Assembly: GCA_030429235.1 (NCBI GenBank)
Contig: JAUIDB010000008.1
Location: 1 to 64,000, forward strand
Direction: 5' to 3'
From: Thermoanaerobaculia bacterium
GTDB taxonomy: Bacteria > Acidobacteriota > Thermoanaerobaculia > Multivoradales > JAIOJS01
Length of the DNA: 64,000 nucleotides
Shown here: in pieces, positions 20,456 through 27,941 of the stretch
How the letters are laid out: each line of letters begins with the position of its first letter
Numbering within the stretch: the stretch's first letter is position 1
Made by a program: the position numbers and the translations under genes
Notes under the pieces: generated by a model
What the model was told of the DNA's origin: nothing
The model's input: only the letters and a program-made list of their open reading frames with translations
Database searches by the model: none

Positions 20456-22390
20456 ATGAACACGCGCGAGCAATTCGGTAATTACCTCCTTCTGAAGAAG
20501 CTGGGGGAGGATCCCCTCGGTGAGGCGTTCCGGGCCGGCAAGGTCGGCGGCCAGGGCATGGAGGAGGTCGTACTGCTCCGAGTCTTCAACGGCCAGGGCA
20601 TCGACGGTCCCGGCATGTGGAAGACCATCGACGGTCGGCAGGGTGTCCAGCAGGCGTTGACCAGTCCCAATATCGGCAACGGGGTCGACCTGGGAGCCAT
20701 CCGCAACATCCCGTACGTCGCGTACGACTACCTCTCGGGCAAGAATCTGGCCAACCTCCTGCAACAGGCCAGCAAGCGCAAGCACCCGATCCCTTCTGAC
20801 CATGCCCTGTTGATCACCGAACGCATCGCGCTCGGACTCGCGGTCGGTTTCGAGACTCGCTACGAGGCCGGTCGGATTCTCCACGGCTGTGTGGTTCCCA
20901 ACCTGGTCATCATCTCCAACGAGGGAGAGACGCGCCTCCTCGGATTCGAAGTGGCGCCCGGGCTGCGGCAAGCCATCGTGCAGAACCCCTCGCATCCGCT
21001 CGGACGCTACCTGGCTCCCGAGGCGCGCGCCGGCCAGCCGGTCGACAAGTCGGACGACGTCTTCTCCCTGGGAGTCATCCTGCTCGAACTGCTCTCTGGC
21101 AAGCCCGTGCCGGTAGGGGCCGACTACGGCGCCCTGATCAACTCTGCCACCATGCAGCCGGACGGAACCCCGGTGCCCGACGACCTCAAGAACCTGATGG
21201 CCCGGAGCCTCGGCTCTCGCGAGCAGCGGATCGGAGACGTGATCCAGTGGCACAAGGCGCTCTCGAAGATGATGTTCGACGGGCAGTACAACCCGACGAC
21301 GTTCAACCTCGCCTTCTACATGCACAACCTCTTCCGCGAGGAGATCGAGAAGGAGAGCAAGGAGATCGAGGTCGAGCGCACGATGGAGATCCCGGTGACG
21401 TCGATCCCCGCCGCGCCTCCGACGGCGGCGGCCGCCGCCGGAGCGGCGACGCCAGCGGCGGGAGGTGATCTGCGCGAGACCACCGGCGTCCGAGAGGATA
21501 CGAGTGTGATCATGGATCGCTACTCGGACGAGGATTCCAAGGGCGGTCCCAACAAAGCGGTCCTGGGAGCGATCGCCGCGGTGCTCATGGTGGCCATCGG
21601 GGCCGGGGCCTACTGGATGAGCCGAGGAGGCGAGGAGCCGGTGACCGAGCCCGAACCGGCCGCTGCCGTCGCCCCCGAGCCGGAGCCGGAACCGGAACCC
21701 GCCGGGCCGACGCCGGAAGAACTCGAGGCTCAGCAGCAGGCCGAAGCCGAACAGGCCGCGGCCGAGCAGGCTGCGCTGGAAGAGCGCATCGCCGCGATCG
21801 TCGATGCCAAGGACAAGGAGCGGGTGGCCGAACTCGAACGGCTGCGGGCCGACCTCGAGACGGCACGTCAACGCGAGGCCGAAGCCGAGAAGGAGCGCCA
21901 GCGACTCGCCGAGGCCGCAGCCGCCCAGGCGGCGGCGGAACAGGCCGCGGCCGAGCAGGCCGCCGCTGAACAGGCTGCCGCCGAGCAGGCTGCCGCCGAG
22001 CAGGCCGCCGCCGAGCAGGAGGCCGCCGCCGAGATTCAGCAGGTCGCCGAGGCCGAGCCTCCGCCCCCGGAGCCGAAGAAGCCCGAAGTCAAGACGGGCG
22101 ACCTCGTCACTCTGGGCCCGGGGGTTACCGTGCCCAAGTTCATCACCATGAGGCCGGTGACCTATCCGGCCATGGCTCGTCGGCTTCGCAAGGAGAGCAC
22201 GGTCGTCGTCAGCTGCCTGGTCGACGAAAACGGCAACGTCAGCGAGACCAAGCTGAAGGGCCGTGAGGTCGGATTCGGTATGGATAGCGAGGCGCTGGCC
22301 GCCGCCAAGACCGCCCGCTTCAATCCCGCCACCAAGAACGGCGTTCGCGTCAAGATCTGGTGGGATCTGCCGATCAAGTTCACGCTCTAG
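20456..22390 (+). CDS. transmembrane pseudokinase with periplasmic TonB C-terminal domain
   Basis: A 644-residue single-pass protein. Residues 8-275 keep the protein kinase fold (APE as LAPEA at 186-190; helix F SDDVFSLGVILLELLSG at 199-215). The catalytic residues are lost: beta3 Lys is Arg42, HRD is HGC (143-145) with Asp replaced by Cys, the Mg-binding Asn is Leu150, DFG is GFE (163-165) and the glycine loop is broken (GEDPLG). After an Ala/Pro linker come one membrane helix (about 366-388), a PEPEPEP stretch, a charged Ala/Glu/Gln coiled coil with six QAAAE repeats, and a TonB_C domain (about 555-644: YPAMARRLRKESTVVVSCLVDENGNV). The TonB N-terminal SxxxH helix signature is absent. It probably couples a cytoplasmic binding platform to the outer membrane. 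Confidence 0.88.
   Translation: MNTREQFGNYLLLKKLGEDPLGEAFRAGKVGGQGMEEVVLLRVFNGQGIDGPGMWKTIDGRQGVQQALTSPNIGNGVDLGAIRNIPYVAYDYLSGKNLANLLQQASKRKHPIPSDHALLITERIALGLAVGFETRYEAGRILHGCVVPNLVIISNEGETRLLGFEVAPGLRQAIVQNPSHPLGRYLAPEARAGQPVDKSDDVFSLGVILLELLSGKPVPVGADYGALINSATMQPDGTPVPDDLKNLMARSLGSREQRIGDVIQWHKALSKMMFDGQYNPTTFNLAFYMHNLFREEIEKESKEIEVERTMEIPVTSIPAAPPTAAAAAGAATPAAGGDLRETTGVREDTSVIMDRYSDEDSKGGPNKAVLGAIAAVLMVAIGAGAYWMSRGGEEPVTEPEPAAAVAPEPEPEPEPAGPTPEELEAQQQAEAEQAAAEQAALEERIAAIVDAKDKERVAELERLRADLETARQREAEAEKERQRLAEAAAAQAAAEQAAAEQAAAEQAAAEQAAAEQAAAEQEAAAEIQQVAEAEPPPPEPKKPEVKTGDLVTLGPGVTVPKFITMRPVTYPAMARRLRKESTVVVSCLVDENGNVSETKLKGREVGFGMDSEALAAAKTARFNPATKNGVRVKIWWDLPIKFTL
21926..22015 (+). repeat. 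15-bp in-frame repeat encoding QAAAE
   Basis: Six consecutive near-identical 15-nt units (cag/gcc/gcg/gcg/gaa variants) encode QAAAE six times in the periplasmic helix of the pseudokinase-TonB protein. Synonymous differences between units show the array is not brand new. Copy number may vary between strains, which would change the reach of the TonB domain. Confidence 0.85.
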
Positions 22391-25349: not shown

Positions 25350-27941
25350 GTGAAGAGAGAGATCGCAGGACTCGTAGTGGCCGTCTGGCTGGTGGCGGGG
25401 CTCGGAAGCGCCGAGCGTGCACCGGCCGCGCCTCGACCTCAGGACGATCTGACCGGCAAGATCTCTTTCTCCCTCCCGATTCCGGTCGAAGACGGAGGCG
25501 GAGAGATCCGCGGCGCCGCCGACCAACTCGACTACAGTGAGGACGGGGGCAGCGCCCTGCTTTCGGGTGATGTCGTCATCGAGTACCAGAACCTCAAGAT
25601 CTCGGCCACCCAGGTCTCGGTGGACCTCGTGCAGCGCACGGTACGGGCTGACGGCGACGTCGTCGTCGACCAGGGGCCGAGTCGGATCACCGGTTCCTCG
25701 GCCGAGTTCGACCTCGACAGCAAGACCGGGTTGATCACCGACGCGGTGGCGGCGGCCGAGGGTGGGTACTTCTTCTCGGGCGACGTGGTGGAGAAAAAAT
25801 CCGATACCACCTACACGATCGTCGACGGGGTCTTTACCGCCTGCGAGGGGGACGTGCCACCGTGGAGCTTCCGGACCCGCAAGGCCGAGATCGAGCTCGA
25901 TGGCTACGCCCGCGTCCGCGGCGCCAGCATGCGGATCAAGTCGCTTCCGATCTTCTACACTCCCTACCTGGTGTGGCCCACGACGACCGACCGGACCTCC
26001 GGCCTGCTGGTGCCGAAGGTGGGGAACTCGAACGACCGCGGAACCTACCTCGGACTGGCCTACTACCACGTCTTCGGTCGGAGCTACGACTCGACCCTCT
26101 ATCTCGACCTGTGGAGCAAGGAGTACTACGGGCTCGGCGCCGAGTTCCGCTACCGCCCCACTCACGAGACGGAAGGCGTACTTCGGGCCTACTCGATCTG
26201 GGACCCGGAGATCGACGATCAGCGCTGGAAGGTGCTCTGGGACCACGAAACCAAGGATCTCCCGTGGGGCTTGCGAGGGGTGCTGCACTACGAGGACTAC
26301 TCCGACTTCCAGTTCTTTCGGGACTTCGAGCGGCAGCTCGACGACAAGTCCAAGAACTCGGTGTACGCGAGCGGATTCGTCAGCGGCAGCTGGGGCAACC
26401 ACTCCTTCAACCTGCTCTTCGATCAGCGGCGCAACTTCAAGAACGAACGTGAGGTCGAGCTGCGCCAGCTGCCCGAGTTGCAGTACCGGTTGCGCTCCCA
26501 GCAACTCGGCGGGTTGCCGTTCTACCTTTCGCTGGACACCAGCGCCCACTACCTGTCGGTCGACCGTAGCGTGACCTACAGCGGCGAGTACTCGCGTGTC
26601 CATCTCGAGCCGAGCCTCAAGGTCCCGCTGTCGAGCCTTCCCTGGCTCTCGGCCTCGGTGACGGTGGGGCAACGCTACACCTGGTACGGCGACAGCATCA
26701 CGACCATCAACGGCCCGACCGAGTTCACCGGCGACTCCCTGGACCGGTCGATTCCGTTCGCCAACGCCGAGATCATCGGGCCGTCGCTCTCTCGGGTGTT
26801 CGAAGGGGGCATGGGGTCCTTCGCCAAGGTGAAGCACATCATCGAACCGCGCTTCGACTACCGCTACGCCGACTCGTTCGACGACGCCGAGCTAGTCCCC
26901 TCGTTCGACGAAATCGACGCGGGGTTCGATGGGCACGAGGGACGGGTGGCGTTGATCAACCGGTTGCTCGGCAAACCTCGCAGCCAGGGGGACGCCGCGG
27001 GCGAGGTTGCGACCGACGAATCGCTCGCCTCTCCGAGTCTGCAGGCCGAACTGGACGCGGCCGACGCCCGGCTCATCTTCGACGACGTCGAGGGAATCTT
27101 CGAGATCGGTGGTGATGTCGTGGCGCCGGTGAGAATCGAGTCTCCGGTGGCGGAGTTCCCCGAGACGGCGCGCGAAGCCGGTGCCGAAGGGGTGGTGGTC
27201 GTGAAGGCGATCATCGACCAGGAAGGGTTCGTGCGGCAGCCGCAGGTCCTCCGTGGAGTCCACCCGGACCTCGACGCCGCGGTGGTCGACGTGATGAGCC
27301 GATGGCGTTTCGAGCCGGCGACCAGGAACGGCGAGCCGGTGGCCGTGTTCGACCGCCTGAGCATGGTCTTCAAGACTGATGTCGGCGAGAAGGCCGCGCG
27401 CGAGATCGCCTCGCTCGAGGTCAGTCGTCGCTACAGTTTCGACGATGCCCGACCGCTGGAGAGTGGCGAAGGGATGGAGTCGGCGTGGGGGCCCTGGCGG
27501 GCGACCCTTCGGGCCTATCCCGGGACACGGTTCGGTTTGCGGCTCGACACGGACTACAGCGACCTCTTCTCGCAGGTGACATCGATCCGCTTGACCAGCA
27601 ACTTCAACCTGGGCGGGGGCAATCGCATCGACCTCTCCTGGTCGCCACAGTACCGGGCGCGGGATGGCGAGACCTTGTCCGACCAGGCATCGCTCGGATT
27701 CCAGTGGGGAATGACCGATCGCCTGACGCTGCGCTCCGCGATCAACTACGACATCGAACGCGACCTGCTTCGCGACCAGCGGCACTTCCTCACCTATCGC
27801 GGAAGCTGCTACACCTTGCGCCTCGAATACCACCAGTCTGAGACCGCGTCGGAGACCCGACGCGACTACCTCTTCTCGGTCGATCTGAAGAACGTCGGCA
27901 CCTTCCTCGACATCACGGGCGGCCGTTCTTCTCGACCCTAA
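25350..27941 (+). CDS. lptD: LPS-assembly protein LptD with internal TonB C-terminal domain
   Basis: An 863-residue outer-membrane protein with a signal peptide (about 1-27). Residues 50-160 form the OstA/LptA-like beta-jellyroll that receives LPS; the barrel follows with family motifs IFYTPYLVWP, RTSGLLVP and IIEPRFDYRY. The only two cysteines, Cys165 and Cys820, correspond to the interdomain disulfide pair positions. Residues about 588-677 are a typical TonB_C domain (FPETAREAGAEGVVVVK, IDQEGFVRQPQVLRG, RWRFEPATRNGEPV) set between the strand ending INRLLGK and the strand EIASLEVSRRYSF. The reading frame is continuous. GAGGAG precedes GTG 25350. It follows the thiolase by 18 nt. Confidence 0.93.
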   Translation: MKREIAGLVVAVWLVAGLGSAERAPAAPRPQDDLTGKISFSLPIPVEDGGGEIRGAADQLDYSEDGGSALLSGDVVIEYQNLKISATQVSVDLVQRTVRADGDVVVDQGPSRITGSSAEFDLDSKTGLITDAVAAAEGGYFFSGDVVEKKSDTTYTIVDGVFTACEGDVPPWSFRTRKAEIELDGYARVRGASMRIKSLPIFYTPYLVWPTTTDRTSGLLVPKVGNSNDRGTYLGLAYYHVFGRSYDSTLYLDLWSKEYYGLGAEFRYRPTHETEGVLRAYSIWDPEIDDQRWKVLWDHETKDLPWGLRGVLHYEDYSDFQFFRDFERQLDDKSKNSVYASGFVSGSWGNHSFNLLFDQRRNFKNEREVELRQLPELQYRLRSQQLGGLPFYLSLDTSAHYLSVDRSVTYSGEYSRVHLEPSLKVPLSSLPWLSASVTVGQRYTWYGDSITTINGPTEFTGDSLDRSIPFANAEIIGPSLSRVFEGGMGSFAKVKHIIEPRFDYRYADSFDDAELVPSFDEIDAGFDGHEGRVALINRLLGKPRSQGDAAGEVATDESLASPSLQAELDAADARLIFDDVEGIFEIGGDVVAPVRIESPVAEFPETAREAGAEGVVVVKAIIDQEGFVRQPQVLRGVHPDLDAAVVDVMSRWRFEPATRNGEPVAVFDRLSMVFKTDVGEKAAREIASLEVSRRYSFDDARPLESGEGMESAWGPWRATLRAYPGTRFGLRLDTDYSDLFSQVTSIRLTSNFNLGGGNRIDLSWSPQYRARDGETLSDQASLGFQWGMTDRLTLRSAINYDIERDLLRDQRHFLTYRGSCYTLRLEYHQSETASETRRDYLFSVDLKNVGTFLDITGGRSSRP

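Follow-up and report, generated by a model that had tools for sequence, protein, structure and literature searches.

LptD is the essential and strongly constrained outer-membrane channel that places lipopolysaccharide (LPS) on the cell surface. Members of the family (PF04453, PF19838 and PF03968) combine a β-taco, a 26-strand barrel and an interdomain cysteine pair, and the LptD described here, encoded at positions 25350 to 27941 (+ strand) of the window (the whole 64,000-nucleotide stretch analyzed), shares all of these features and comes from a genome with LptA-like, LptB, LptF/G and LptE proteins. The difference lies in the turn T8, which is short in ordinary LptD and here holds a folded TonB C-terminal domain (CTD). 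An additional periplasmic domain at the translocon is also provided in Escherichia coli by the lipoprotein LptY (YedD), but that is a separate lipocalin-like protein that binds the β-taco, with no fusion at T8 (PMC12644819). A TonB-like domain on an outer-membrane barrel occurs likewise in the MxcH-type TonB-dependent receptor (NF038079, positions 1 to 94, from an NCBIfam match), although there the TonB-like stretch is N-terminal on a TonB-dependent receptor rather than within LptD. The standalone TonB CTDs of the same order (PF03544) resemble the domain in sequence (~50% identity), fold and extent to the final strand, whereas the LptD-borne domain sits internally in an outer-membrane barrel and differs at its edge strand and basic positions. 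Being inside LptD, it has neither an N-terminal membrane helix nor a Pro-rich linker and is therefore not a TonB protein.

The lptD gene encodes 863 amino acids without internal stops and is the sole full LptD detected in the genome. It was described at the outset as intact, and it is; Pfam matches its product to LptD (72.6 bits; cut-off, 22.4), LptD_2 (46.9 bits) and LptD_N (26.4 bits; cut-off, 20.4). Residues 38 to 210 (25461..25979, +) form the N-terminal periplasmic β-taco (LptD_N), as identified by Pfam and by the AlphaFold strands, and barrel strands β1 to β16 follow at residues 223 to 543 (26016..26978, +), assigned from AlphaFold strands and alignment to solved LptD. Strands β17 to β26 (residues 684 to 861; 27399..27932, +; AlphaFold) are 80% identical to those of a sister genome. 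Between the two sets of strands lies an insertion (residues 544 to 683; 26979..27398, +) that is absent from other order-level LptDs. It opens with an Ala/Glu/Asp-rich N-side linker (residues 544 to 578; 26979..27083, +; low pLDDT, 52% identity to the sister), followed by the TonB CTD (residues ~579 to 677; 27084..27380, +), which is recognized by Pfam TonB_C, AlphaFold and Foldseek. With the whole protein as query, TonB_C was matched at residues 602 to 667 (52.7 bits, E = 6e-14; cut-off, 24.6), and TIGR01352 scored 41.5 bits (cut-off, 27.1), so the preliminary description was right to assign residues 588 to 677 (27111-27380) to TonB_C. That the insertion separates adjacent strands likewise stands, on alignment and AlphaFold, whereas its extent had been drawn too short: alignment to relatives places it at ~544 to 683, where it begins directly after NRLLGK and takes the place of a turn of ~10 residues. 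The domain is thus held by an N-side linker of ~35 residues and a C-side tether of ~6. That this is an LptD carrying a TonB C-terminal domain within one frame we regard as practically certain.

The Lpt pathway is otherwise present in the genome, with LptE (51.8 bits), LptA-like, LptB-type and LptF-LptG proteins, and the gene for the LptB-type ABC protein adjoins that for the LptA-like protein. The LptA-like protein (L148; G000:C6:187953) exceeds 600 residues, far longer than ordinary LptA, and its gene adjoins both the lptB-type gene and rpoN. On the same contig, LptF and LptG are joined in a single frame as a fused LptFG permease (L151:1486-3855; G000:C6:201942-204284), with 790 amino acids from its likely start and two LptF_LptG domains (523 bits).

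The full-length AlphaFold model, built on a 58-row alignment, reached a mean pLDDT of 82, and the best 38 Foldseek matches of this model were LptD structures (E to 1e-34). In it, barrel strands 528 to 543 and 684 to 696 border the insert and residues 544 to 683 lie outside the barrel; the insert itself was covered by two alignment rows, the rows for the models being drawn from the window and related loci, and was modeled at pLDDT 40 to 67. When the TonB domain was modeled alone with four related rows, its helices and strands followed one another as in a TonB CTD (pLDDT 87). Foldseek matched this model to TonB CTDs in each of its first 16 hits, headed by TonB from the FoxA complex (6i97_D; E = 4.5e-6, TM = 0.79 by target). 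AlphaFold and alignment together rule out that residues 544 to 683 are ordinary barrel strands; the domain folds as a TonB CTD apart from the barrel, as the preliminary description supposed.

Sixteen strands precede the insert in the model and 10 follow it, giving a 26-strand barrel in addition to the β-taco. The first barrel strand (223 to 227) is short, so the strand numbering leans on a cysteine anchor. Cys165 in the β-taco (codon 25842..25844, +) and Cys820 (codon 27807..27809, +) are the only two cysteines of the protein, are cysteine in 78 of 78 relatives and are likely disulfide partners. In E. coli LptD, Cys724/725 lie in the periplasmic β24-β25 turn and join the β-taco (PMC12644819). 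Cys820 occupies the β24-β25 turn as in E. coli, which fixes the numbering and places the insert at the periplasmic β16-β17 turn (T8). Profile alignment to solved LptDs independently equates this turn with a short turn of YDDAAVE type in enterobacterial LptD. A periplasmic position of the turn, originally argued from its shortness, is thus supported by strand counting in the predicted structure, the invariant Cys165/Cys820 pair and the loop-length pattern described below; an extracellular loop is ruled out by strand parity and the same two observations.

Both genomes carrying the insertion are draft assemblies of many contigs, in which an assembly or sequencing error might fuse two genes. The insertion recurs, however, in frame and with identical junctions, in a second, independent metagenome-assembled genome of the same genus (G001 = L068, JAIOJS010000196.1, Thermoanaerobaculia), whose LptD is only 69% identical overall and 62% identical within the TonB domain. 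Judged by this sister record and the other named relatives, the host belongs to Thermoanaerobaculia, in a small lineage of uncultured Acidobacteriota. With identical junctions in two proteins that differ by 31%, an assembly join at the insert is ruled out, short of one error common to both assemblies, and the chance of an artefact of any kind is negligible.

Among 72 genomes of the order, 70 with a strong LptD match, the insertion was found in these two genus members only; in other relatives the LptD match ends at ~545 to 553 and restarts at ~680, with a short turn in between. A search with a profile of the insert and both flanking strand regions returned no fusion beyond the genus members in either the class (149 genomes) or an even sample of the phylum (396 genomes), two overlapping sets that both lie within Acidobacteriota; the phylum search scored no more than five candidates in each genome, and a very diverged fusion could thus escape. 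Two proteins whose matches spilled into the flanks (G004:C31 and G033:C257) proved to be ordinary proteins with TonB_C at their end. Pfam detected TonB_C in the genus pair alone among 58 LptDs. A single-protein search of the genome contigs gave no match, whereas an alignment-based search did, and the TonB rows had no match among viral contigs. Among the genomes searched, an LptD with a folded TonB domain at T8 is confined to the genus. Literature searches, which covered few subscription journals, returned no description of an LptD-TonB fusion, in keeping with the initial impression that this architecture had not been described.

The two LptD-borne domains form one clade in the tree (support, 98/99) and are ~0.46 to 0.52 identical to the order's standalone TonB family. 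By this evidence the domain was gained once, from a TonB of the lineage; the tree singled out no one member of the standalone family as the donor. TonB_C is mobile in this genome, occurring in TonB-like proteins, a TolA-like protein and further protein classes. It stands at the end of two Ser/Thr kinase-like proteins, two BlaR1/M56 proteases and one GGDEF protein; an internal position was seen in LptD alone. One of the kinase-like proteins is encoded in the window (20456-22390, +) and combines a membrane segment and a stretch of Ala/Gln/Glu repeats with TonB_C at its C-terminus; a paralogue lies at G000:C75:53359. The BlaR1/M56 proteases (L002 and L007; G000:C37:135808 and C69:77046) carry one TonB_C domain or a tandem of two at their end. 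The GGDEF diguanylate cyclase joins its C-terminal TonB_C in one frame (L009:376-1737; G000:C90:27445) and is possibly a periplasm-to-cytoplasm signaling protein.

T8 differs from the other periplasmic turns of LptD. Across 76 Acidobacteriota LptDs without a TonB domain, T8 spans 5 to 137 residues (standard deviation, 21), whereas the remaining 11 periplasmic turns measure 1 to 15 amino acids with length standard deviations of at most 1.2. Among the periplasmic turns of Acidobacteriota LptDs, T8 alone shows great variation in length, a pattern that is new here and that explains how a domain could be accepted at this site. Charged, low-complexity T8 insertions of 58 to 137 residues occur in three other Acidobacteriota LptDs (L132, L134 and L084). 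No known Pfam domain was found in the five long T8 turns searched (L084, L126, L132, L134 and L141); L141 gave a sub-threshold match at chance level.

Between the two genomes, dN/dS of the TonB domain is ~0.22 to 0.28 (dN, ~0.29 to 0.31; dS, ~1.1 to 1.3), an estimate from a single genome pair with dS near saturation. The corresponding ratios are 0.28 for LptD_N, 0.12 to 0.16 for the barrel and ~0.34 for the N-side linker. Being similar to LptD_N in these values, the domain is constrained and, by these ratios, appears to be under purifying selection that is weaker than in the barrel and stronger than in the linker. Of the 64 positions near-invariant in standalone TonBs, both LptD copies retain 31, a single copy retains 10 and neither retains 23. 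Most of the kept positions hold Gly, Pro, Ala, Trp, Phe or a hydrophobic residue of the kind that maintains a fold. Lost positions include the KGLPMG loop of standalone TonBs and the majority of conserved basic residues, and the last strand has changed from NLTVNF to RLSMVF and QLVSRF in the two LptD copies. The aromatic-Pro start motif (YP) reads FP in this genome and YT in the sister, YT being also usual in the TonB of the order. Losses common to both copies (R29G, Q31E, N48Q, V49P, K50Q, M57P, G58D, A63V and K68S in the numbering of alignment A4) probably predate the species split and were then kept; the shared derived changes include VRQPQ and PDLD. We read this as a fold that has been kept while its surface may have been re-purposed, with backbone strand pairing still possible.

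Our favored hypothesis, held with modest confidence, is that the T8 insertion constitutes a built-in periplasmic docking domain beneath the LPS translocon, although the docking itself is something we infer. In this proposal, T8 of a canonical LptD would have been lengthened once, in the genus ancestor, by a copy of a TonB C-terminal domain, which would fold independently, sit just under the barrel rim and act as a fixed periplasmic docking module for a translocon partner in the periplasm or outer membrane, probably contacting it through edge-strand pairing. An energizing role is not expected because the domain lacks its own membrane anchor for ExbB/ExbD, and the replacement of the TonB-box strand and of most basic residues makes a re-purposed docking module likelier than an energizer. 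A tentative extension, for which the odds are rather against, is that LptD in this genus works as a machine of two parts, in which the domain recruits a specific partner from the periplasm or outer membrane to the translocon, and that T8 is a general Acidobacteriota docking port with lineage-specific adaptors. An alternative hypothesis makes TonB, or TonB boxes, the pairing partner of the domain, which would thereby couple LPS export to nutrient uptake or compete with it. The last strand of TonB CTDs pairs with TonB boxes (PMC11658791, PMC6699858), and an edge strand is present at residues 91 to 104 of the domain model; however, the last strand retains just 7 of 18 near-invariant cells, and of 9 near-invariant basic residues 8 differ (6 if a K-to-R exchange is taken as kept). 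As far as sequence comparison goes, these changes speak against the usual docking to TonB-dependent receptors, and we consider such a link improbable. The acidity of the domain adds little here, since one TonB paralogue is acidic too and charge alone is a weak sign of changed function.

The main rival to a docking domain is a tolerated passenger in a permissive T8, folded only because misfolding would spoil an essential barrel. The low-complexity T8 insertions of other Acidobacteriota, 5 to 137 amino acids of turn with no Pfam domain, suggest that the site may simply be permissive, and both the confinement of the insertion to one genus and the replacement of most TonB-specific surface residues fit a passenger. 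Against this, constraint on the domain is much like that on LptD_N, and VRQPQ and PDLD have been retained by both copies, such that we think a passenger unlikely, if still a serious contender. It is far less probable that the insert aids LptD assembly or contacts LptE or BAM in the periplasm: it lies on the side where the barrel meets assembly factors and the genome encodes an ordinary LptE, yet relatives manage without it.

A folded domain grafted among turns of nearly fixed length shows where the translocon accepts additions, and T8 suggests itself as a natural fusion site on the periplasmic face of LptD. The envelope of this phylum has received little study, and the domain also points to a further partner in its LPS export. 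Were it to bind a part of the TonB system, it would tie LPS export directly and physically to TonB-type transport, a connection of which, to our knowledge, no other case is known.
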